Origin: a virus
DNA length: 46,535 bases
Strand: one strand, 5' to 3'
Virus record (IMG/VR): IMGVR_UViG_3300046010_005459
Span: 1-46,535 of that record
Shown here: piece after piece, positions 2,961 to 46,535 of the stretch
How the letters are laid out: each line of letters begins with the position of its first letter
How positions within the stretch are numbered: position 1 is the first letter of the stretch
Translations under genes and position numbers: made by a program
Notes under the pieces: generated by a model
The model's database searches: none
Told to the model about the DNA's origin: nothing
Seen by the model: only the letters and a program-made list of their open reading frames with translations

Positions 2961-5471
2961 TTGAAGTTTTACACATCAGTAAACCTTGTCAAAAACAACA
3001 TCCTTCTGCGCGGGTATGACAACGGCAAGCGGGTTCAGGAATATGTTCCCTACAATCCGTTCATGTTCATTACGTCAAAAACAGGCAACACAAAGTATAA
3101 AACGCTTGATGGTAAACCTGTTGATCGTATCAATTTTGATTCCCCGTCAGAGGCGCGTGATTTTATTCGAACGTATAAAGACGTTTCGGGAATGACAATC
3201 TACGGTATGGACAAGTTTCAATACACGTTCATTTATGAAGAATACCCAGGTGAAATTCAATACGATCCTGAACTGATCAACGTTCTGAATATTGATATTG
3301 AAACACCGACCGATGAAGGTTTCCCTGATATTCAGAAGGCAGAAGTTCCTGTCGCAGCAATTACCATGAAGTGTCGAGACGAATATATCGTCCTCGGTAT
3401 GCAGGAATACGAACCTAAACTGCCTAACGTCAAATTCATTCGCTGCAAGGATGAACACAACCTACTTACGAATTTCATCAAAATTTGGAACATGCCTTCG
3501 TGGAACCCTGACATCGTGACGGGGTGGAACATTGAGTTTTTCGATATTCCATATCTGGTCAATCGTATCACGAAACTGCTCGGTGAACGTGAAGCGAAGA
3601 AATTGTCGCCGTGGGGATTCCTAGAAGAACATGAGATTGAGTCGCGTGGTCGCAAGCAGCAGGCATTCCGTCCTATGGGTGTCGCTGTCCTAGATTATGT
3701 GCAATTGTATAAGAAGCACACTTACGTCAAGCAGGAAACATATAAACTCGACTACATCGCCTATGTTGAACTCGGCGAAAAGAAACTCGACTATTCTGAC
3801 TACGACTCGCTTTACGATCTTTATATCAAAAACTATGAAAAGTTCATTGACTACAACATTCATGACGTTACACTGGTTGCGAAACTAGATGATAAGTTGA
3901 AACTATTTGAACTTGTATATGCACTTGCATATGACGCAAAGATCAACTACGATGATACATTTGCATCTGTGAAACCGTGGGATATTATCATCCACAACTA
4001 CTTGCTTGATAATAAGACAGTCATTCCGCAGTTTGACACACGGCCATCTGATCGTGAACTTCCTGGCGGTTATGTCAAGGAACCTAAACCTTCTATGTAT
4101 AAATGGGTTGTGTCATTCGACTTGAACTCACTGTATCCTCACCTTATCATGCAATACAATATCTCTCCTGATACGTTTGTCATGCGCCTGCCGTATGACA
4201 TGAGTGTTGACGATTTGCTGCGCGGTAAACTGAATGACATCCGTGAGGAGTTCGAAGATCGCAATTGTGCAATCACTGCGAACCTGTGTCTTTATGATAA
4301 AAAGAAACAAGGATTCCTCGCACAGTTGATGCAGAAAATGTATGACGACCGAGTTGTCTATAAAAATAAGATGATTGACGCAAAGAAGGAATATGAAAAG
4401 TCGCATTCCATTCAGGCGAGCAAAGACATCGCTCGTTACCACAACATGCAGATGGCGAAGAAGATTCAACTTAACTCCGCTTATGGTGCACTTGGTAATG
4501 AATGGTTCCGTTGGTTCGATATGAACCACGCAGAAGCAATCACTTTGTCGGGTCAGTTGTCCATTCGTTGGATTGCAAACAAAATGAATGAATATCTGAA
4601 TAAATTATTTAAAACGAAGGACTATGATTATGTCATTGCATGTGATACGGACTCGATGTATGTTAACTTTGATAAATTGGTGCAGTTGGTTTTTGCTGGA
4701 AGAAGTGAAGCTCCGAGTGACCTTGAAATCACAAGATACCTGGATAAAGTATGTCGGGAAAAGATTGAACCTTTTATTGATTCTTGTTACAAAGAACTTT
4801 CTGTATATGTTAATGCATTTGATCAGAAGATGAAAATGAAGCGAGAAGCAATCGCTAACAAAGGCATCTGGACGGCAAAGAAACGTTACATTCTGAATGT
4901 GTATAACCTTGAAGGCGTAGAGTATTCAGAACCTAAATTGAAGATGCAAGGTATCGAAGCAGTTCGCTCGTCAACACCTTCATCAGTGCGTGAATCTATC
5001 AAAGAAGCGCTAGAGATCATCATGAATAAAGATGAAAATTCGCTGCACAACTTCATTGAAGATTTCCGTGGACGTTTCTTCACGTTGCCTTTTGACGAGG
5101 TTGCTTTCCCTCGCGGGTGTAACGGGATGAATAAATACAGAGACGCAAGTCAAATCTATCGCAAAGGCACACCTATCCAAGTTAAAGGCGCACTGCTCTA
5201 TAATGAGTATGTCACCCGTAAAGGACTTGACAAGAAAGTCCCTGTTATCTTCGAAGGCGATAAAATCAAGTTTGCATACTTGAAAATGCCGAACCCGTTG
5301 CACAATCCAGTCATCTCGGTTCCCGATGAACTACCAAAGCAACTAGGCCTCCATAATTACATCGACTATAACACACAGTTCGAGAAGTCATTCCTCGAAC
5401 CGTTGAAAACAATCCTTGATGCTATCGGATGGCATCATGAACAAAAAGTAACTATTGAGGACTTTTTCTAA
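2961..5471 (+). CDS. 43: Family B DNA polymerase (T4 gp43-like)
   Basis: 836 residues, slightly shorter than T4 gp43. Exonuclease motifs: Exo I D112-I-E114 in NIDIETPTDEG, Exo II GWNIEFFD (D195), Exo III YNIHD (Y298...D302). Polymerase motifs: A with DLNSLYPH (D387), B with KIQLNSAYG (about 501-509), C with CDTDS (562-565). All key residues for proofreading and synthesis are present, so it should be the replicative polymerase. Translation starts at TTG, with AGGAG seven bases upstream and no better in-frame ATG near. It is the first gene after a consensus promoter and is followed by recombinase and helicase genes. Confidence 0.97.
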   Translation: MKFYTSVNLVKNNILLRGYDNGKRVQEYVPYNPFMFITSKTGNTKYKTLDGKPVDRINFDSPSEARDFIRTYKDVSGMTIYGMDKFQYTFIYEEYPGEIQYDPELINVLNIDIETPTDEGFPDIQKAEVPVAAITMKCRDEYIVLGMQEYEPKLPNVKFIRCKDEHNLLTNFIKIWNMPSWNPDIVTGWNIEFFDIPYLVNRITKLLGEREAKKLSPWGFLEEHEIESRGRKQQAFRPMGVAVLDYVQLYKKHTYVKQETYKLDYIAYVELGEKKLDYSDYDSLYDLYIKNYEKFIDYNIHDVTLVAKLDDKLKLFELVYALAYDAKINYDDTFASVKPWDIIIHNYLLDNKTVIPQFDTRPSDRELPGGYVKEPKPSMYKWVVSFDLNSLYPHLIMQYNISPDTFVMRLPYDMSVDDLLRGKLNDIREEFEDRNCAITANLCLYDKKKQGFLAQLMQKMYDDRVVYKNKMIDAKKEYEKSHSIQASKDIARYHNMQMAKKIQLNSAYGALGNEWFRWFDMNHAEAITLSGQLSIRWIANKMNEYLNKLFKTKDYDYVIACDTDSMYVNFDKLVQLVFAGRSEAPSDLEITRYLDKVCREKIEPFIDSCYKELSVYVNAFDQKMKMKREAIANKGIWTAKKRYILNVYNLEGVEYSEPKLKMQGIEAVRSSTPSSVRESIKEALEIIMNKDENSLHNFIEDFRGRFFTLPFDEVAFPRGCNGMNKYRDASQIYRKGTPIQVKGALLYNEYVTRKGLDKKVPVIFEGDKIKFAYLKMPNPLHNPVISVPDELPKQLGLHNYIDYNTQFEKSFLEPLKTILDAIGWHHEQKVTIEDFF

Positions 5472-8429: not shown

Positions 8430-8600
8430 CACTTGATCGGGCATAATGCCTTATCACCCAACAATTTGACACTTTACGTTCTCGAAACGTAAGAGGCAAG
8501 AGTGCTTTAATGCACGAAGGAATAGCTGAGGTCGCATCAAGAATGCCAGTGGGGTTCTGCTCAGTAGTGTCATAGGGGTCCTTCGGGACCCCTTTTTTAT
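8430..8600 (+). ncRNA. Candidate small RNA gene
   Basis: About 170 bases without a convincing ORF, between a late-type promoter box and a strong terminator. They contain a perfect hairpin TTACGTT/AACGTAA with loop CTCGA (8474-8492), a second short hairpin GTGC/GCAC (8502-8515), and the terminator stem at the 3' end. That order is the layout of a stand-alone small RNA. It does not look like tRNA or tmRNA, and no known family was recognised. It might also be only a long 3' leader of the upstream message. Confidence 0.45.
8574..8598 (+). terminator. Strong rho-independent terminator
   Basis: GGGGTCC and GGACCCC (7 pairs) close a TTCG tetraloop, followed by TTTTTT. It ends the replication unit and any small RNA from the preceding gap. 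Confidence 0.95.
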
Positions 8601-8603
8601 TGG

Positions 8604-8655: not shown

Positions 8656-9183
8656 ATGAATATCTTTTATATTGACCAGGACCCGACTCAGGCAGCACAA
8701 TGGATGGTTGACAAACATGTAGTCAAAATGATTCTCGAGTCAGCACAGTTGTTGTCAACAGCGCATCGTGTCCTTGACGGCAAAGAATATGTTGACGGAT
8801 CATCAGGTCGTAGGATCAAGCGTTGGATGCTTGCAGATGATCGTGAGCATGTGCTGTATAAGGCAACACATATCAACCACCCGTCAGCAGTTTGGTGTCG
8901 CACTTCAGTGTGCAACTATCAGTGGTTGGTTGATCACTTCTATGCATTACTTGACGAGTATACTTACCGTTATAATAAAAAGCACAAGTGTTCTGAACTC
9001 GCATACACATTGCAATCACCTCCGTTCAACCTCAAGGCATGGGACGAAACACCCATGCTCTGTGCAATGGATGACAAGTATATTGTATCGAAAGATGCAG
9101 TAGAAAATTATCGCAATTATTATAAGGCAGGTAAATCTGCATTACACAAGTGGACTAACCGCGAGGCACCCTATTGGATTTGA
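8656..9183 (+). CDS. Conserved phage protein of unknown function (DKHVVKM family)
   Basis: 175 residues from the ATG at 8656, preceded by CAGGAG. It shows the pattern of a protein frequent in large phages: an opening NIFYIDQDP, the invariant-looking DKHVVKMILESAQLLSTAHR block (given here in part), then THINHPSAVW and a C-terminal WTNREAPYW. The His/Glu-rich helix (DKHxVKM...ExxQLLxTAHR) could bind metal or nucleotide, but no biochemical role is known to me. It has its own sigma70 promoter and is separated from the virion genes by a late-type box. Confidence 0.75.
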   Translation: MNIFYIDQDPTQAAQWMVDKHVVKMILESAQLLSTAHRVLDGKEYVDGSSGRRIKRWMLADDREHVLYKATHINHPSAVWCRTSVCNYQWLVDHFYALLDEYTYRYNKKHKCSELAYTLQSPPFNLKAWDETPMLCAMDDKYIVSKDAVENYRNYYKAGKSALHKWTNREAPYWI

Positions 9184-9189
9184 TAAATA
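9182..9189 (+). promoter_or_regulatory. T4-late-like promoter box (GATAAATA)
   Basis: GATAAATAC overlaps the stop of the previous gene, 37 bases ahead of the first leader-bearing virion gene at 9219. It is the best placed candidate for the late promoter of the 9.2-14.7 kb block. Confidence 0.5.
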
Positions 9190-9218
9190 CATGAAAATAT
9201 CATTATATGGAGATTTTC

Positions 9219-10316
9219 ATGTTAAGTTTCAAAGGGTTTTTAATTGAAGCTGCTGACGGTATGGTCGGCACTATTGGTTCTGACGGAAAAGGTAAGCGTC
9301 ACACTAAAAATTATGTCATGAGTTTGCTTTCTGCAGAAGGCCGTAAAAAAACTGCTGACAGTTTTGAGAAACACGGAGGGTTGGGGGATCTTAGTAAATA
9401 TCCTGCCCCATTAAATAACGATAATCAACATACTCATGTATTGAGAACTTCTCAAAATGGTCATCCTGCAGGGACACAAGTTCATGTTACACACGCTACA
9501 GTAGATGATGCGGGTGCAATTACTGTTCATACAAAAGGACATGGCTCATTCTCACAAGCTGCGTTAATGAAACCTGATGCACTCAAAAAACCTGCTATAA
9601 CGAAAACAGGATTTGATGTTGAAGGTAAGATCGCACAAAATCTAGGAACACAGGCAGCAGGTTCAACTAAGCACGGATATGATTACCAATACAGTTCAGG
9701 TAGAGGTCATGTTAGAGGTAAGGTGAAAGAAGTCGGCGCTGCACCTGATATTCGTGGCGAATCTAAGTTAGACAAAGGCAAAATGGGTCAATCCACTTTC
9801 AAACATGACAAAGAGAAAGGTTGGCATTTCACAAATGAAGCCGTAGGCAAGCATTTCGAAAAAGCGACTGTCAAAGGATCTGATGGCAAAGAAAGAGGAA
9901 TTATTGAACACTTCAACAAATTCCACGGTGATGGTAAAATTGATAGAAGTTATTCTATTGACGCACCAAAAGGCGCAACAAGAAATTATCTCAACACAAG
10001 CAATGTAAATTCGTTGCATTTGCATAATAAGTCTGCAAACAAAGGAACAACTTTTACTATCGGTGACACACACCTAAAGGGTAAGACTAAGTTGGGTCAT
10101 TTGTCAGACGACCATTTAGACGCACTTGACGGCAAGTTGTCTATTGAAAAAACCACAACAGGTAGCACACAGGTTGCACACAGACCTAAAGCAGCTGTTA
10201 TGAAACAATATGCAAATCTTTCCACAACCGATGCGGCAAATCATCGTGATTTGACCAACGAAGAACATGCGAAAGAATTTAAAACACACGTTGACAAAAT
10301 CCCAGGAAATGCATAA
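9219..10316 (+). CDS. Putative capsid-targeted internal protein, possible nuclease
   Basis: 365 residues from the ATG at 9219, which has GGAG seven bases upstream (better than ATG 9207). The N terminus MLSFKGFLIEA resembles the T4 capsid-targeting leader, with a LIE cleavage-type site. The body is Gly/His/Lys-rich and soluble. A segment DIRGESKLDKGKMGQ near residue 180 has the D...ExK spacing of PD-(D/E)XK nucleases, and FDVEGKIAQNLG about 30 residues earlier could supply the helix Glu. The nuclease reading is tentative. It heads a run of five genes with the same kind of leader. Confidence 0.6.
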   Translation: MLSFKGFLIEAADGMVGTIGSDGKGKRHTKNYVMSLLSAEGRKKTADSFEKHGGLGDLSKYPAPLNNDNQHTHVLRTSQNGHPAGTQVHVTHATVDDAGAITVHTKGHGSFSQAALMKPDALKKPAITKTGFDVEGKIAQNLGTQAAGSTKHGYDYQYSSGRGHVRGKVKEVGAAPDIRGESKLDKGKMGQSTFKHDKEKGWHFTNEAVGKHFEKATVKGSDGKERGIIEHFNKFHGDGKIDRSYSIDAPKGATRNYLNTSNVNSLHLHNKSANKGTTFTIGDTHLKGKTKLGHLSDDHLDALDGKLSIEKTTTGSTQVAHRPKAAVMKQYANLSTTDAANHRDLTNEEHAKEFKTHVDKIPGNA

Positions 10317-11260
10317 TGATCAGATTCAAGAGTTTTATTGCAGAAAGTATCCGCCAAGGATTGCCGCATATCACTACGATGGATCATGAACAATTTAAAA
10401 ACCTAACTAAAGATGGTAAGGTTAAAATTTCATCCGCTACAGAAAAGACAGACGGATCAACTTTTTTAATTGGTCATGATGATAAAGGGTTTTATACACA
10501 ATACTCAGGGTCGGGTAGTGAACGTATGCGAACACCCGAAGATTACGCAGAAAGAGCTAAGAGACGCGCACAAGAGACGGGTAAACCTTTAGACATGACT
10601 GCGTCAAATGCTTTCGGCACTGCACACGCTGCATTACAAAAAAACAAACCTCTGCTACAACATTTGCAAGCAACAGCAGAACGTAGCGGCGGCGAAACTA
10701 AAGTTCGCGGAGAGTTGTTTTCAAAGGCATTATCACGACCGTCAGAAACACCAGGCGAAATAAAATTTGTCGGAACTTCTTATCATCCGGAACATATGGG
10801 CTCTGTGGGTAAATTTGTTATTCATACTCGCTTGCCTGAAAATCAACATCATGAAGTAGAAAAGTTTAAAAAAGAACTATCCTCACCCGAATTGAATTTC
10901 GATGACGACAATATTAAAAATTTCAAGGCAGGTGAAGTTGATGTTTCAAAACATATCGAAGGTATGAAAGACGTTAATGCAGAGTTACTCAAAGCGAGAA
11001 CCACGCCGAAGAACAAACAAGCAAAAGCAGAAGAAAACACTAAGTTCGACGCTGTGAAAAAAGCAGTGTCGGATGCTGTAGATAAACATGTGAAATCTAT
11101 GGGTGTCATGCCTAAGTGGGGTTCGGGTAGTGAGGGACTTGTCGTGCATCCTGAAGAGGGTTCATCCGCACCACGTTTCAAAATCACATCTGATGCATTC
11201 CGTGACTATAAAGCATCTGATGAATCTAAAAATTTCAAAAATCGGGCGGTGAACAAGTGA
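10316..11260 (+). CDS. Putative capsid-targeted polynucleotide ligase-fold protein
   Basis: 314 residues. The leader MIRFKSFIAES carries the IAE site of T4 internal head proteins. The body shows covalent nucleotidyltransferase motifs: I EKTDGS (lysine K44), III-like RGELF (131-135), IV SEGLVVH (272-278) and V FKIT (K289). This order is that of ATP-dependent DNA/RNA ligases, which seal 5'-phosphate/3'-OH ends. An insertion of about 100 charged residues separates motifs III and IV. RNA versus DNA substrate cannot be decided. It starts at a TAATG overlap and is followed by the nucleotidyltransferase gene. Confidence 0.7.
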   Translation: MIRFKSFIAESIRQGLPHITTMDHEQFKNLTKDGKVKISSATEKTDGSTFLIGHDDKGFYTQYSGSGSERMRTPEDYAERAKRRAQETGKPLDMTASNAFGTAHAALQKNKPLLQHLQATAERSGGETKVRGELFSKALSRPSETPGEIKFVGTSYHPEHMGSVGKFVIHTRLPENQHHEVEKFKKELSSPELNFDDDNIKNFKAGEVDVSKHIEGMKDVNAELLKARTTPKNKQAKAEENTKFDAVKKAVSDAVDKHVKSMGVMPKWGSGSEGLVVHPEEGSSAPRFKITSDAFRDYKASDESKNFKNRAVNK

Positions 11261-12156
11261 TCAGATTTAAACATTTTATTCTTGAAGGCGGAAACGTCAA
11301 AGTAAAGGACGCAGATGGAAAAGAAGTTTCCGCTGCGCCTTTTGCCATTAAAGATAGATCCGCACAAGCAAAAGACGTCCATGATGCGTTGTCTTCAATT
11401 CACAACTCATTCCATGCTGCAACAGGCAAGCACTTATTTGGAAAAGATGCAAAAGCGTTGTCAACAGGATCTGCATACTCGGGTTCTTCTAAGCAATTCA
11501 TGAACAAAGACAAGAGTCCTATCTCGGATGCAGAGTTCAAGAAACACAAACCAACTGTAGGTGACGTTGACGTTCAGGTTCCTAAAGAACATAAAGAAGA
11601 GTTGCATTCTCATTTGCAATCACAAATCGGTCAACGTCATGGCAAATATACTCTAGTCGGCATAAAGAAATCAGGTAATGAGACACATGCAGTGATGCGC
11701 CATGACAACGGAGAACATCATCAATTTGACTTTGAGCATGTCGCATATCACAACCATGAACCTGCAGAACATGAACAATTCTTACATAGTTCTTCATGGG
11801 AAGATTCTAAAAAAGGCATCAAAGGCGCTCACCACAAGATTCTATTGAACGCTGTTGCATCTGCGTCTGATCACAAATTCTCAATCACCCACGGTTTGCG
11901 TTCTAGGACAAATGCAGATGATCCTGGAGTTGCAGCGCCTAAAGAAGTGTCAAAAAAATTGTTCGGTCCTAAAGCAAACCACGAAAACGTCAATTCGTTT
12001 GTCGGACTCGCTGATTCTATCAGACGTCACGTCCCTGCTGAAAAGCATCAAGAAATTTATGACAAATTCAAAGGTGGTATGGCGAATAACAAAAACGTTG
12101 ATAGCACAAACGCAATTGCTCATTTGAAATCTACTCTAGGCACAAAGGACGAGTAA
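11257..12156 (+). CDS. Putative capsid-targeted polymerase-beta-fold nucleotidyltransferase
   Basis: 299 residues from GTG. The leader MIRFKHFILEG is nearly the same as that of the preceding protein. The core shows STGSAYSGSS (GS at 71-72), then GDVDVQV (D103, D105), and a possible third acidic residue in HQFDFEH (D158): the GS...DxD...D plan of the Pol-beta superfamily (kanamycin-type, CCA-adding and related enzymes). The C-terminal half, with KGAHHKILLNAV, is probably helical. The substrate, whether RNA end, small molecule or protein, is unknown. Confidence 0.65.
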   Translation: MIRFKHFILEGGNVKVKDADGKEVSAAPFAIKDRSAQAKDVHDALSSIHNSFHAATGKHLFGKDAKALSTGSAYSGSSKQFMNKDKSPISDAEFKKHKPTVGDVDVQVPKEHKEELHSHLQSQIGQRHGKYTLVGIKKSGNETHAVMRHDNGEHHQFDFEHVAYHNHEPAEHEQFLHSSSWEDSKKGIKGAHHKILLNAVASASDHKFSITHGLRSRTNADDPGVAAPKEVSKKLFGPKANHENVNSFVGLADSIRRHVPAEKHQEIYDKFKGGMANNKNVDSTNAIAHLKSTLGTKDE

Positions 12157-12157
12157 G

Positions 12158-12769
12158 ATGTTATCATTTCTAAAGTTTCTTATCAGAGAAGAATCCGAAC
12201 AGCATGCTTCAGTTATTCCTATGGTTGGGTTCAGTCCTATTTCCCACATGGGCCACGCAAAAGACCTCGGCGGTTCTTTATCAAAACTACCTGGTGAAAA
12301 GCACATCGGTATCTCGTCAAAAGCAGACGCATTCTCGCCAGAAGAACGTAAAGGGATTCTAGAGAAGCAATGGGGCAAAGGTAAAGTCAAGGTTCATATT
12401 GCAGATGGTGCAGGTGAATCTATCCGTGCTGCCCATGATTCCATGAAAGGTTCAGGACCTAAGCATCTTCACATTCTTGTTGGCGCAGACAGAAAATCTT
12501 TCGCTGAGGGGTTGAAAAAATCTCTAGAAGCGGGTAAAATAAAAGAGATGGGTGAACACAAGTTTGATTCCATCACTGTGCATACACCAGAAGATTCTGA
12601 TCGCAGTCATGGCATGTCCGGAACAAAGATGCGAGCGGCGGCACATGAAGGCAATGAAGAAGAATTTCACCGCCACATGGGTCCGGCGTTTAGTCGTGAA
12701 GAATCTAATGGTGTCATGAAAAAAGTTAAAGCAGGCATCGACTCAGGCAAAATTCCACTAAAGAGATGA
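12158..12769 (+). CDS. Putative capsid-targeted cytidylyltransferase/NMNAT-like protein
   Basis: 203 residues. Leader MLSFLKFLIREE, then an HxGH nucleotidylyltransferase core: GFSPISHMGHAKDL (H30-M-G-H33) and the second signature GMSGTKMRAAA (SGTKMR at 154-159), which matches the ISGTxxR motif of NMN/pantetheine adenylyltransferases. The order and spacing are right for this fold. Members transfer AMP or CMP to a phosphorylated substrate; NAD synthesis is one possibility but is not shown. The ATG follows the previous stop by one base. Confidence 0.72.
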   Translation: MLSFLKFLIREESEQHASVIPMVGFSPISHMGHAKDLGGSLSKLPGEKHIGISSKADAFSPEERKGILEKQWGKGKVKVHIADGAGESIRAAHDSMKGSGPKHLHILVGADRKSFAEGLKKSLEAGKIKEMGEHKFDSITVHTPEDSDRSHGMSGTKMRAAAHEGNEEEFHRHMGPAFSREESNGVMKKVKAGIDSGKIPLKR

Positions 12770-12771
12770 TC

Positions 12772-13380
12772 ATGAAAACATTTGCAGATTTTTTAGCAGA
12801 AGGCAATAGCATCCATTACTTCGATGTTGACAAAACATTGATGCATACTGATGCAACTAAAGTTCATGTCAACGACTCGAGTGGCAAGAGAGTTGCATCG
12901 CTCGACCCACAGGAATACAATCATCACAAATTGCCCGCAGGTCATAGTTATGACTATTCAGAATTTAAATCTGCTAAAAACTTTGAAAAAGCAAAACCTA
13001 TTCGCAAGGTTCTTGCAAAAATGAAAGCGATCAAAAACAACGGCGGAAAGACGGAAATTTTGACTGCGCGTTCTGACTTTGATGACAAAGAAGGTTTTGC
13101 AAAGACATGGAAAAAATACGGCGTTGACATTAGTCCTGGTCATACTCATGTGAGACGCGCAGGTAATTTAAGTTTGCCCACTCATGATGCAAAAGCGAAA
13201 ATCATTTCTGATGCAATCAAAAAACATGGGCACACTGAAGTTCATTTGTATGATGACCACAAACCGAATATTGACGCAATGCTTGCACTTAAAAAGGACC
13301 ACCCAGACGTATCATTCCACGGCCATCATGTAGAACACGGTTCCGATGGTTCAGTTAAACTCACTCATTATAAGGCGTAA
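12772..13380 (+). CDS. Putative capsid-targeted HAD-family phosphatase
   Basis: 202 residues if started at ATG 12772, giving MKTFADFLAEG, almost the same as the T4 internal-protein leader MKTYQEFIAE; the in-frame ATG at 12766 would add two residues. HAD motif I is FDVDKTL (D18, D20), motif II is ILTARSD near residue 100, and motif III/IV LYDDHKPN lies near residue 157. This is a complete acid-phosphatase layout like the phosphatase half of polynucleotide kinases. With the ligase-like gene in the same block, a nucleic-acid end-processing role is plausible but inferred. Confidence 0.75.
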   Translation: MKTFADFLAEGNSIHYFDVDKTLMHTDATKVHVNDSSGKRVASLDPQEYNHHKLPAGHSYDYSEFKSAKNFEKAKPIRKVLAKMKAIKNNGGKTEILTARSDFDDKEGFAKTWKKYGVDISPGHTHVRRAGNLSLPTHDAKAKIISDAIKKHGHTEVHLYDDHKPNIDAMLALKKDHPDVSFHGHHVEHGSDGSVKLTHYKA

Positions 13381-15076: not shown

Positions 15077-16162
15077 ATGGAAAAAGATATAAACAAAACT
15101 AAAAAAGACCTAAAAAAACCCTCTTCGGTTAAATCTGTTATTAACACCAATCCTCAGCTCCCAGGTGTCGTTGAAAATGGTCCGGCCGTAGCTAAAACTC
15201 CCCTTGCTGAGAAAATATTACGTTTGTCAGGCAAAGTTAAATCGCGTAACGAATCTACGCAATTTAAAATGTCGCAAGAAAATGTTGATCTATTAATTGA
15301 CGCCGTGTTGACTGAAAATCTTGATGACAAGATTGAAAAGTTGTTGCGTGTCGGATTAGGTGACATTAACAAAATTTCCATGTATAGAAAAGCACTATCC
15401 GATCCTGATGCGGCAGTTAAAACAACTGTGCTTCGCAAATATATTGTTGACGTGCTTGACAAACTACTTGACATTATCGAAGACGATAATGTTCTCTATC
15501 AAAGATTACTTGCAAACCTAATGAAGCGCAAGTCAATGAAAGAATGTGCAATTACAGTTGCATTGAAGAAAAAATCAGAAAAATTTGATTACGACTTCGA
15601 AACACTTGCAGAAGTGTATTATCGCGGCGTGCAATCATGGGACAAAACAACAGGCACTACACCTGTTCAATTTGGTTTCAATAGAGTTAATTCATTTGTA
15701 AACAACGGTCGTGCTTATAGATTAGATGAAGATTTGGTTGTGCGAGACAAAGCACACACAACCAGTGCAGGTTTTAAAGCACAAGTTAGACATGAACCAG
15801 GCAAACCTGCTAAGTTTGTCAGAAGAAATACTGGTGAAATTAAAATCAATGAAGCAAATCCTGCAATTGAAACAGAACCAAAACTGAAAAAGAAAACAGT
15901 TAACAGAGAAATTTACGGCGTAAATCGCAAATCACAGGATCCGATGTCTGAAGGCAACGTTGATCCTAAGAAGCGTTTTATCGGAACAAAATCACTAACG
16001 GATACATATAAAAAAGACACTCCGGGTGAAAAATTAAAAGAAACAACAACAGGTGGGTTTGATAAAAAAATCAATGTGGCAGACGTTCCTGTCAGATTGA
16101 TCACCGGCAAAATCAAAAGACTTCCACCTGCAAAGAGCTCAAGTTCAAAAGGCGGTGATTGA
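15077..16162 (+). CDS. Probable virion or head-associated protein
   Basis: 361 residues, highly charged at both ends. The N terminus (MEKDINKTKKDLKKPSS) is lysine-rich and probably disordered. A central folded part ends with YYRGVQSWDKTTGTTPVQFG followed by NRVNSF, a block I associate with conserved proteins of T4-like cyanophages. The C-terminal 120 residues are basic and low in complexity. The context is head and internal proteins and the exact role is unknown. Good RBS TAAGGA upstream. Confidence 0.6.
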   Translation: MEKDINKTKKDLKKPSSVKSVINTNPQLPGVVENGPAVAKTPLAEKILRLSGKVKSRNESTQFKMSQENVDLLIDAVLTENLDDKIEKLLRVGLGDINKISMYRKALSDPDAAVKTTVLRKYIVDVLDKLLDIIEDDNVLYQRLLANLMKRKSMKECAITVALKKKSEKFDYDFETLAEVYYRGVQSWDKTTGTTPVQFGFNRVNSFVNNGRAYRLDEDLVVRDKAHTTSAGFKAQVRHEPGKPAKFVRRNTGEIKINEANPAIETEPKLKKKTVNREIYGVNRKSQDPMSEGNVDPKKRFIGTKSLTDTYKKDTPGEKLKETTTGGFDKKINVADVPVRLITGKIKRLPPAKSSSSKGGD

Positions 16163-16695
16163 TGTTAAGTTTTAAAAAGTTCGCAGAAACAAACGTGGTT
16201 TCTGAAGCAAAGGATGATCGTGAATACGGCTATGAGGGTGAGATGGCAATGTCTCAACTCAAGTCAATCATGCGTAATTCTAAGGAATTGCTCGACATGT
16301 TAGAACCCGACACTGATTTGCCTGAGTGGGTTCAATCAAAAATCACCCTCGCACAAGATTACATTCAAACCGCTGCTGATTACATGAGCACCGAAATGAA
16401 TGAAGAAGTCATTGATGAAAAAGTTGCAGCATGGCAGCGCAAAGAAGGTAAGAATCCTGAAGGTGGTTTGAATCAAAAAGGTGTAGAATCATATCGTAGA
16501 GAAAATCCGGGTTCTAAACTAAAAACTGCTGTCACTACTGAACCGTCAAAATTAAAACCGGGATCTAAATCAGCAAAAAGAAGAAAATCATTTTGCGCTA
16601 GAATGGGCGGAATGAAGAAAAGATTGACTTCTGCTAAAACTGCAAATGATCCTAATTCACGCATCAACAAAGCATTAAGAAAGTGGAACTGCTAA
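16162..16695 (+). CDS. DUF6321-type protein with capsid-targeting-like leader
   Basis: 177 residues from ATG 16162, which overlaps the previous stop as TGATG. The leader MLSFKKFAETNVVSEA resembles the leaders of the 9.2-13.4 kb genes, with possible cleavage at FAE or VSE. The C-terminal half matches the DUF6321 pattern: KGVESYRRENPGSKLKTAV, RRKSFCARMGGM and a terminal NKALRKWNC. This domain is strongly basic, with two conserved cysteines, and is found in many phages. A role inside the head, perhaps on DNA, is inferred. Confidence 0.75.
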   Translation: MLSFKKFAETNVVSEAKDDREYGYEGEMAMSQLKSIMRNSKELLDMLEPDTDLPEWVQSKITLAQDYIQTAADYMSTEMNEEVIDEKVAAWQRKEGKNPEGGLNQKGVESYRRENPGSKLKTAVTTEPSKLKPGSKSAKRRKSFCARMGGMKKRLTSAKTANDPNSRINKALRKWNC

Positions 16696-17132
16696 TGGAC
16701 GAATTTATTGAACAAATGAAAACTGTGCTTGCTAATACGTTTGCATTTTATTTGAAAGCACACAACTATCATTGGAACGTTGAAGGTCCTAACTTCAACG
16801 ACCATCATGCATTCTTTGCAACTATCTACAACGACTCATGGGGTGCAGTAGATGAAATTGCAGAACACATTCGCACGCTCGATGTTTATGTGCCAGGTTC
16901 ATTCGGTCGTTTCCGCGAGTTGTCACAAATTCAGGACGAGACAAACGTTCCAGATGCTCACGGCATGTTTACCAAACTAGAAGAAGACAATAAAAAAGTC
17001 ATCGCTTCTTTGAAACTTGCACAAAAAACTGCAGATCAAGTTGACGCAGTGGGTATTTCTAATTTCTTACAAGATCGCATTGACATCCACGAAAAGCACG
17101 GATGGATGATGCGTGCTATCATTAAGAGATAA
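16695..17132 (+). CDS. dps: Dps/ferritin-like protein
   Basis: 145 residues from ATG 16695 (TAATG overlap). The Dps signature is clear: HNYHWNVEGPNF (H26), DHHAFF (H38), and VDEIAEHIR (D53, E57), spaced like H51, H63, D78 and E82 of E. coli Dps. The residue matching D67 is Ala, so the inter-subunit ferroxidase site may be incomplete. Dps proteins form 12-subunit shells that store iron, remove peroxide and can bind DNA. Its place between head-protein genes suggests late expression; it has no capsid leader of its own. Confidence 0.88.
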   Translation: MDEFIEQMKTVLANTFAFYLKAHNYHWNVEGPNFNDHHAFFATIYNDSWGAVDEIAEHIRTLDVYVPGSFGRFRELSQIQDETNVPDAHGMFTKLEEDNKKVIASLKLAQKTADQVDAVGISNFLQDRIDIHEKHGWMMRAIIKR

Positions 17133-17135
17133 TAA

Positions 17136-18449
17136 ATGAAAAACTTATTCGAAACAATCAATACTATTCGTGCCAAGGGTGTAAACACTCCTCGCCTGGG
17201 AACTGATGACACAACAGTTCCTACGGTGCAAGGTGATATGCCTGCAGGGAAAGTAGAACCGAATCCCGCTGACAACTATAAAGCGGTCAAAAACAGAATG
17301 GCGCAAGTGAAAACAAAAATCATTGACGAAACTAATGGAGAAACAACCATGCCACAAGATAAAGTGAGCGCCTCTTTTCTTGAGGCATTGAACCAAGTTA
17401 AAGCAAACGCTGTTGCACTTGACGAAAAGAAGCACAAAAAGAATAAGCACGGACATGACGCAGTCGGTCATGAAGATGCAGACATTGACAACGATGGTGA
17501 CGTAGACAGTTCAGACAAGTATCTACACAATCGTCGCAAGGCAATCGGTAAGGCAATTGCTAAAGAAGAAGTCGAGGGACTCAACGAACTTTCAAAGAAG
17601 ACTCTTACATCGTATGTTAAGAAAGCAGCTGGTGATGCTGTTACTAAAGCTTATAGAGCAGGTGATGTTCGTGATAAAGACAGCGGTAAAAACTATATAA
17701 AAGCTCTAGGAAGACAAATTGGCATTTCTCAAGCAACTGATAAACTAGCTAAAGAAGAAGTCGAACTTGAAGAAGCAGCAACAGTTGTTCTACGCAAGGG
17801 CGGCGCAACTAAGCGTATGCGTTACAACCCTGCCACAATCGAAAGAATGAAAGCAGAAGGTTGGGTTCTTGCATCAGAAAGCTTTGTCGAAAAGGTCAAA
17901 GAACTATTCAGCATCGAAGAAGAAATCTCACTTGATGACGCAATTGCATTGGTTGAAGAAGAGCAAGCAAAGCGTGGTCGTGGTCGTCCTAAGAAGGCTG
18001 TTGATCCTAATGCAGCGCCGAAGAAAACATGGACACCTGGCGGTCGTGGTCGTCCACCAAAGAATAAAGATGCAGCATCAAAAGTGTCTACTTCTGATAC
18101 CAAAGCAGCTGCACCTGCTGCAAAAGAACCTGAAAAGCAAGATGCCGGTGACACTCAGCACATCCTTGTTCAATTGAGAAAAGCAGCAACAAACGAACCA
18201 GGTGAAAGCGGATCAGGTAAAAACACCATCAAGTATTTGAACAATACGACTGGTCAAGTTACTGCATCACAAGCACGCAATGCATTGACCATGCACGACC
18301 AAATTAAAACTGCGGGTGACAGATTCAAAGCACAACGCAGAATGGGCGGCAGTCACGAAGGTTTGACTGGATTCTTGGCAGGTAAAGAAGAAAACACAAC
18401 TGCAAAGCCAAAAGTCAGTTTAGCACAACCAGGTTGGAATAAAAAGTAA
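17136..18449 (+). CDS. Internal virion/head-core-like protein with AT-hooks and an EF-hand-like loop
   Basis: 437 residues, mostly charged and low in complexity. Visible parts are a calcium-loop-like DIDNDGDVDSSD at 116-127, ELSKKTLTSYVKKAAGDA at about 151-168 (a motif seen in phage head proteins), and two AT-hook-like motifs, RGRGRPKK at 280-287 and GRGRPPKNK at 303-311. AT-hooks bind the minor groove of AT-rich DNA. Acidic helical parts (EEEISLDDAIALVEEE) lie just before them. A DNA-contacting protein inside the head or prohead core fits best; the enzyme content is nil. Confidence 0.6.
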   Translation: MKNLFETINTIRAKGVNTPRLGTDDTTVPTVQGDMPAGKVEPNPADNYKAVKNRMAQVKTKIIDETNGETTMPQDKVSASFLEALNQVKANAVALDEKKHKKNKHGHDAVGHEDADIDNDGDVDSSDKYLHNRRKAIGKAIAKEEVEGLNELSKKTLTSYVKKAAGDAVTKAYRAGDVRDKDSGKNYIKALGRQIGISQATDKLAKEEVELEEAATVVLRKGGATKRMRYNPATIERMKAEGWVLASESFVEKVKELFSIEEEISLDDAIALVEEEQAKRGRGRPKKAVDPNAAPKKTWTPGGRGRPPKNKDAASKVSTSDTKAAAPAAKEPEKQDAGDTQHILVQLRKAATNEPGESGSGKNTIKYLNNTTGQVTASQARNALTMHDQIKTAGDRFKAQRRMGGSHEGLTGFLAGKEENTTAKPKVSLAQPGWNKK

Positions 18450-45775: not shown

Positions 45776-45857
45776 CGCGTATATGCGAAGGCACCACAAG
45801 CGCTTGTTCTTACGTTCTTAGCGTCTAACCGCTTGTTATCTTAGCAAAACATTCTCC

Positions 45858-45886
45858 TTGACGCATTTTCCCGAATATTCGATAAA
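45858..45886 (+). promoter_or_regulatory. Tandem early-type promoter, copy 1
   Basis: TTGACG, 17-base spacer CATTTTCCCGAATATTC, GATAAA (45881-45886), followed by CAAAGCATGATGAAAC. The spacer carries the palindrome GAATATTC next to the -10 box. Confidence 0.82.
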
Positions 45887-45917
45887 CAAAGCATGATGAA
45901 ACGCGAAGGAGAAGCGG

Positions 45918-46094
45918 ATGTTTGAAGTGCTGGTCACGAAGGACTTTGAGGATGCTGCTAAGCGCTACGTCTTCCGTGGGCCTAATGCCCAAGACAATGC
46001 TTTCACCTACGCCGCGACCGTCCAGGAGATGGCGGATTGGGGTGGGTATGCAGTGATGGTCGAGGTCAAGGAAGTGGTTGACACTATTTCCTGA
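45918..46094 (+). CDS. Small protein of unknown function, 58 residues
   Basis: ATG with AAGGAG seven bases upstream. Sequence MFEVLVTKDFEDAAKRYVF ... WGGYAVMVEVKEV, a compact alpha/beta protein by appearance. Its G+C is clearly above that of the core genes. The last 17 bases, with the stop codon, lie inside the next promoter. Probably an early host-directed protein, but this is inferred only from promoter and size. Confidence 0.6.
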   Translation: MFEVLVTKDFEDAAKRYVFRGPNAQDNAFTYAATVQEMADWGGYAVMVEVKEVVDTIS

Positions 46095-46106
46095 ATATTC
46101 GATAAA
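46078..46106 (+). promoter_or_regulatory. Tandem early-type promoter, copy 2
   Basis: TTGACA, 17-base spacer CTATTTCCTGAATATTC, GATAAA (46101-46106), followed by CAAAGCATGATGAAGC, almost identical to copy 1 from the spacer middle on. Confidence 0.85.
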
Positions 46107-46134
46107 CAAAGCATGATGAAGCAGGAGACGCAAG

Positions 46135-46380
46135 ATGGCGAAGTTTGACCAAGAGACCGTAGCACGTTGGAAGCAGATGGCGGATGACTGGCTTGTCAAA
46201 GCACAGGATCCCGGCACCCGTGAAGACATCCATCTCGGCGCTGAAGCATGGGCAATTGCTCACCGCAGCGGAATAAGTGTCGAGGCCTATGCTGACCGGG
46301 AAGTCACGGACGCCCATATCGTCACCGCGCTGAAGCAGGTCTTCCCGAATGCTGTCTTCAAGGACCGCTACGTTTACTGA
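46135..46380 (+). CDS. Small protein of unknown function, 81 residues
   Basis: ATG with AGGAG upstream. Helical, charged sequence (FDQETVARWKQMADDWLVKA, GAEAWAIAHRSGISVEAYAD). G+C is high compared with the rest of the window. Between promoter copies 2 and 3. No family recognised; its layout matches early-gene arrays of T4-like phages. Confidence 0.65.
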   Translation: MAKFDQETVARWKQMADDWLVKAQDPGTREDIHLGAEAWAIAHRSGISVEAYADREVTDAHIVTALKQVFPNAVFKDRYVY

Positions 46381-46381
46381 G

Positions 46382-46410
46382 TTGACATCTTTTCCTGAAT
46401 ATTCGATAAA
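46382..46410 (+). promoter_or_regulatory. Tandem early-type promoter, copy 3
   Basis: TTGACA, 17-base spacer TCTTTTCCTGAATATTC, GATAAA (46405-46410), followed by CAAGACATGACAAAGG. Confidence 0.85.
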
Positions 46411-46434
46411 CAAGACATGACAAAGGAGATGTCC

Positions 46435-46535
46435 ATGCTGACAGTTGTTCTGGATTCGGTGAAGCGCACTCGTGGCAAAGAAGAGTATCGGATGGTGCCG
46501 CGAGCATCGGCGCTCGGTGTTGAAGTCATAGGTGA
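46435..46535 (+). CDS. Small protein, cut by the window end
   Basis: ATG with AAGGAG six bases upstream (an in-frame ATG at 46429 is too close to it). The first 33 residues are readable, MLTVVLDSVKRTRGKEEYRM then VPRASALGVEVIG, and the frame is open to the end of the window. Function unknown. Confidence 0.55.
   Translation, partial: MLTVVLDSVKRTRGKEEYRMVPRASALGVEVIG

Follow-up and report, generated by a model that had tools for sequence, protein, structure and literature searches.

A probable T4-like capsid-targeting leader on five consecutive genes, four for predicted enzymes and one for an enzyme-like protein, in a T4-like phage fragment

In phage T4, IPI, IPII, IPIII and Alt reach the head by means of a capsid-targeting sequence (CTS), an N-terminal leader of about ten residues in which positions 4 and 7 are aromatic and positions 8–10 read L/I-x-E. 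Apart from Alt, whose leader differs, the T4 carriers known are a few small inhibitors. Here we describe a 46,535-base virus record (the window, that is, the whole stretch of DNA that was analysed), a fragment of a T4-like phage encoding DNA polymerase B (2961–5471), uvsX and gp41 helicase, in which five consecutive plus-strand genes at 9219–13380, designated g1 to g5, begin with a leader of this kind and continue into bodies of unrelated families. As with the T4 internal proteins, one leader is set on unrelated bodies within the group of phages that have a gp21 protease. The T4 proteins are, however, one ADP-ribosyltransferase and otherwise small GmrSD inhibitors (PMC12373910), whereas here the leader is found on a whole cassette of predicted nucleic-acid and nucleotide enzymes, which in relatives are fused into long chains.

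Three other systems bear comparison. The cytidylyltransferase or NMNAT found in virions of the cyanophages S-SM1, S-SCSM1 and S-CREM2 is a homologous HIGH nucleotidyltransferase with the same gp41–gp61 location, and the leader is common to S-SM1 and S-SCSM1; the papers on these virions report the protein, but we found no mention of a leader in them, and no adjoining leader-bearing set of ligase, polymerase-beta and HAD genes is described. Polyvalent proteins combine several enzymes in one polypeptide, which is presumed to be packaged and delivered (PMC5512222), and an internal HExxH peptidase-like region is present in one relative of the cassette, L033. Unlike polyvalent proteins, the window has separate genes, with multi-domain polypeptides in the relatives L033, L057 and L060; delivery is proposed to depend on a gp21-cleavable leader, and the domains include an RNA-ligase fold together with kinase-like and polymerase-beta domains. 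The ligase fold, the PNKP-like HAD phosphatase and the P-loop kinase-like domain of L033 also recall the Pnkp/Rnl1 tRNA repair of T4, whose enzymes are made after infection, whereas those described here are seemingly pre-packaged, include extra nucleotidyltransferases and have no kinase in the window cassette. The individual elements (CTS, gp21 sites, virion NMNAT, polyvalent proteins) are known already. The original prediction held that an enzyme operon marked in this way was undescribed, and a literature search, in which subscription journals were thinly covered, likewise found no leader-coded enzyme cassette or operon and no processed fusions.

The five N-termini quoted in that prediction (Table 1) are all present as it gave them. 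Chance was assessed with the template M..[FYW]..[FYW].?[ILVM].E, set by T4 data, and with a background rate of 3.3e-4 per internal position of the window proteins. Five of the window's 73 genes match, all of them adjacent, against 0.07 expected by chance (P ~1e-8), which bears out the claim of one leader before unrelated bodies. The strict leader pattern, applied to all starts on both strands of the window, matches these five only. The scan is specific, because in phage T4, used as a control, a comparable scan picks out ipII, ipIII and the hypothetical gene 61.1 and nothing else; it is blind to leaders of other design, such as that of Alt. Gene 61.1 (54 residues; NC_000866, 19130–18966) begins with MKTFKEFIKE, a perfect leader, and its product is a candidate for an unrecognised T4 internal protein.

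Amber-suppressor mutagenesis of the IPIII leader of T4 assigned residues 4 and 7 to targeting and residues 8 and 10 to processing (PMC9026906). Among the ten-residue leaders of the cassette and its relatives, F or Y occupies position 4 in 42 of 44 and position 7 in equally many, with a rare L at the former and a rare I at the latter; position 8 is L or I except for one F and one V, position 10 is E, and positions 5, 6 and 9 are variable. The glutamate is an independent result for g2 and g3 only, because the end of the leader was set at E in g4, g5 and the rows from outside phages. As judged from the alignment, the conserved columns are those of the T4 CTS map. In the g1 family, where identity to the window protein is 24–34%, the invariant columns number 24 and include M1, F4 and E10. 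The triplet preceding the body is (L/I)xE in 22 of 23 members of the g2 family (FxE in the other) and in 26/26 members of the g3 family, two of these being g2–g3 fusion junctions (L033 and L060), so that 48 of 49 non-redundant homologues have it and the exception carries F at P3. Leader length differs across families, with 10 residues in some cases and over 25 in others, and the triplet is retained.

The g3 homologues of Vibrio phage Va1 and Xanthomonas phage X1 are leaderless and start M-GGN, which corresponds to the predicted mature N-terminus, and in Campylobacter phage CP220 the homologue carries a leader of another kind, which ends ILE/GGN (the slash marking the predicted cut). In AlphaFold (AF2) models the predicted local distance difference test (pLDDT) score is 89.6 for g2 and 90.2 for g3; the residues below 50 are 1–10 and the last four in g2, and residues 1–10 of g3 also lie below 50, so that both models show a disordered leader separable from the folded body. 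Relatives with g3+g4 or g2+g3+g4 fusions have a single N-terminal leader, the internal FxxF part having been lost and an xE site standing at the junction. The g2–g3 junctions read LLRE/GGN, IIME/GGN and LLNE/GGN, the last in L057, and the g3–g4 junctions are mostly [I/L/V/M]xE. A polyprotein of 2202 residues in L033 (6189–12794) comprises ligase, pol-beta, HIGH, HExxH and zeta-toxin/AAA_33-type P-loop kinase regions with DUF6321 last, and has one leader and [ILV]xE sites between domains. The fusions amount to a natural experiment, in which the targeting part is needed once per chain whereas the cleavage site is kept at each junction. A predicted metalloprotease-like protein with a leader is encoded separately in G006 (79418–78894) and is fused to the g5 phosphatase, again with one leader, in L046 (4686–5660).

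A gp21-type protease is encoded in the contigs of six relatives (G002, G006, G007, G009, G011 and G012) and in 8/8 cultured phages tested. In five of these six relatives, gp23 has LxE (LTE, LAE, LFE, LNE and LNE) at the position at which T4 gp23 is cut. Taken with the conserved positions, the (L/I)xE triplet, the leaderless homologues and the fusions, this supports the assignment of the leader to the T4-like capsid-targeting type cut by gp21. The motif upstream of the cassette in the window (Table 1) recurs in L001, where GATAAATA lies at -40 from the cassette. Within the 80 nucleotides that precede the first cassette gene, the exact T4-type late promoter, TATAAATA, is found in 8 of 24 loci, at 34–68 nucleotides, against about 0.2 expected. 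Across the window the exact motif is no more frequent than chance; it is its placement in the relatives alone that is informative.

Table 1. Coordinates of the leader-bearing genes and of the neighbouring regulatory motifs in the window
Feature	Position	Strand	Length (residues)	Remarks
g1	9219–10316	+	365	leader MLSFKGFLIE at 9219–9248
g2	10316–11260	+	314	leader MIRFKSFIAE at 10316–10345
g3	11257–12156	+	299	GTG start; leader MIRFKHFILE at 11257–11286
g4	12158–12769	+	203	leader MLSFLKFLIRE at 12158–12190, one residue longer
g5	12772–13380	+	202	leader MKTFADFLAE at 12772–12801
Sixth candidate, DUF6321 protein	16162–16695	+		looser leader MLSFKKFAETNVVSE, then A
Late-promoter-like motif	9182–9189	+		GATAAATA, one base off T4-type late promoter TATAAATA; 37 nucleotides upstream of cassette
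Intrinsic-terminator-like hairpin and T-run	8571–8601	+		AGGGGTCCTTCGGGACCCCTTTTTTA, read directly; between gp41 helicase gene and cassette region

Evidence from virions comes from cyanophages, in which a homologous cytidylyltransferase (T4-GC190) is syntenic, lying between gp41 and gp61. Mass spectrometry of purified S-SM1 virions detected this protein (PMC3037559), and the virion proteins of S-SCSM1 include NMNAT together with its neighbours ORF89, 90, 92 and 93 (PMC9602691). A cytidylyltransferase is also present in virions of S-CREM2, whose authors caution about possible carry-over (PMC10665884). The N-terminus of the S-SM1 cytidylyltransferase, MKKFSAFLNE/A, marks the sole S-SM1 gene with a convincing leader, and the S-SCSM1 NMNAT begins with MKSFLQFLKE/A. 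Packaging in the capsid, as originally predicted, is thus supported by leader-bearing, syntenic homologues of g4 in purified virions (PMC3037559, PMC9602691). Some of the S-SCSM1 neighbours detected in virions have no such leader, and the leader is therefore not the sole way into the head. The S-SCSM1 virion protein ORF93 (L117, 11627–11836) has a leader-like motif, RTFKEFLEYIE, at its C-terminus.

Of the five enzymes claimed at the outset, four stand by family or fold, whereas g1 is only enzyme-like (E...D...ExK) and belongs to no established family. The g1 family has invariant E135, D155 and E181-x-K183, a signature from which we infer a PD-(D/E)XK-nuclease-like protein. In the g2 alignment TEKTDG, of motif I type (KxDG), is invariant, and the best matches of a Foldseek search of the PDB are RNA ligases, namely RNA-editing ligase 1 (REL1; E=4.9e-5) and T4 Rnl1, so that g2 is a predicted RNA/DNA-ligase-fold protein. 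The g3 protein matches phrog_19290, has conserved GS and GDxD, and gave Foldseek matches to PolX (probability 1.00 but E=1e-3) and to terminal uridylyltransferases (TUTases); by fold it is a predicted polymerase-beta-type nucleotidyltransferase. A HIGH-type nucleotidyltransferase, cytidylyltransferase/NMNAT-like, is predicted for g4, which matches phrog_3041/395 and has invariant HMGH and SGTxMR. For g5, which matches phrog_415 polynucleotide kinase (E=2.9e-7) and in which DxDxTL, TARxDxD and DD are invariant, the prediction is a HAD phosphatase, PNKP-like. Together, the bodies look like a set for the repair of RNA ends and nucleotides. Searches of cultured phages by tblastn gave no match for g1, g2 or g5, no PDB sequence was retrieved with the g2, g4 or g5 profile, and PADLOC matched no defence family. 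The weak Cas12k matches that were all the g3 profile found among PDB sequences were judged to be chance, and Pfam matches to DUF2981, CjCas9_WED and DUF3801, far below cut-off, were discarded.

Most likely, the five genes, and probably a sixth, make up a cassette that is expressed late and encodes internal head proteins. The probable sixth member is the DUF6321 gene, whose orthologue in L001 has a clean leader, MLSFSEFITE. Transcription would occur late, as heads assemble, in keeping with the late promoter of T4 type that many relatives have ahead of the cassette. The aromatic residues at leader positions 4 and 7 would dock each enzyme on the prohead core, like T4 IPIII, as suggested by mutagenesis in T4 and by the conservation of these positions, and a gp21-type protease would cleave at the conserved site after (L/I)xE, taking off 10–11 residues and releasing the folded enzyme. 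Our confidence in packaging with leader cleavage, read from these sequence features, is high. By analogy with T4, and given the g4 homologues found in virions, the enzymes would remain in the filled head and exit with the DNA, and their entry into the host is likely. In the new host, the set may repair RNA ends, restore NAD or nucleotides, or both, ahead of phage gene expression, which is the least certain step; the set would thereby counter host defences that act early, for example by cutting tRNA or depleting NAD. That phages can use RNA repair against tRNA-cutting defences is established in principle (PMC9503650), and the T4 internal proteins act on first-response defences (PMC12373910, PMC9391042). 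A repair role for the cassette enzymes is put forward only tentatively. More speculative again is a head-delivered RNA and nucleotide repair kit of ligase, terminal nucleotidyltransferase and phosphatase (with a kinase-like domain in relatives) under one targeting code, which some relatives would make as a polyprotein for the head protease to sever at every junction, and which would mend tRNA-cutting or NAD-depleting damage from the first minute of infection. If this code does mark enzyme cassettes in environmental T4-like phages, injected enzymes could be recognised in a sequence by a leader plus (L/I)xE, and a loading mechanism would be at hand for enzymes associated with virions, among them the cyanophage NMNAT. 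Repair enzymes delivered before any phage gene expression would also help to explain survival of fast-acting host defences.

Several observations weigh against this account. A genome search for a gp21-type protease (PF03420), proposed earlier as a check, found none in the 46.5-kb window fragment, its positive results coming from the six relatives' contigs. Published virion detection is limited to homologues of g4 in cyanophages, these are distant (about 31% identity over half of g4), and their detection could be carry-over. At the g3–g4 junctions I or L stands at P3 in only about half, the rest having V, M, T or A, and cutting there is less certain because P3 is less strict. No Pfam, PHROG or PADLOC match was found for g1, which leaves it with no detectable family; the Foldseek template modelling (TM) scores are low, with 0.26–0.38 in the g3 search; and the RNA-repair set of the window is incomplete, because the cassette has no kinase. 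It is also conceivable, though unlikely, that packaging and cutting take place but that the proteins serve head assembly only, as filler of the core or as a scaffold, and that the enzyme folds are relics or act in the producing cell only. T4 IPIII mutants show aberrant head assembly (PMC9026906), and in G006 the leader is found on two proteins encoded between the portal and protease genes, the slot of T4 core genes 67 and 68, which fits such a role. Relics, however, would not retain the catalytic motifs that are invariant across relatives (TEKTDG in g2, HMGH/SGTxMR in g4 and DxDxTL in g5), and the bodies stem from unrelated folds.

That the leader is instead a docking tag that stays uncut and serves a target outside the head, such as the replication complex or a membrane, is quite improbable. 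The cassette does adjoin the replication genes gp43-uvsX-gp41 and gp61, and an amphipathic helix is able to bind many partners, but such a tag would not account for the strict (L/I)xE before the body, for leaderless homologues that begin at that very residue, for fusion junctions that keep an xE site but lack the aromatic part, for the late promoters, or for the leader-bearing homologues detected in virions. Short hydrophobic starts are common and short motifs are easily over-read (unrelated internal matches occur at 3e-4 per position), so the likeness of the N-termini could be put down to chance, or to shared ancestry of duplicate genes. This explanation, to which we give almost no weight, is already refuted by the chance statistics (P ~1e-8), by the (L/I)xE before the body and by the g1 family, in which M1, F4 and E10 stay invariant down to 24% identity; origin of the leader by duplication of one gene is ruled out, the bodies being unrelated folds. 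Packaging of the enzymes in the head by way of a cleavable leader is the reading that we prefer.

Alternative, longer open reading frames for g1 and g5 open at 9207 and 12766, and the starts at 9219 and 12772 are preferred because purine-rich motifs (GGAG and AAAGAG) lie upstream of them. Directly after the sixth leader gene, the window encodes a protein judged by eye to be Dps/ferritin-like (16683–17132). The following protein (17136–18449) contains the motif DxDNDGDxDxSDKYLxNRRKAI, also present in the S-SCSM1 virion protein ORF92, and is likely, on the strength of this motif, to be a further virion-internal protein. At 45825–46533, recurring minus-strand peptides (FIEYSGK / CFVYRIFGK) lie between short open reading frames, which suggests a repeated intergenic element.

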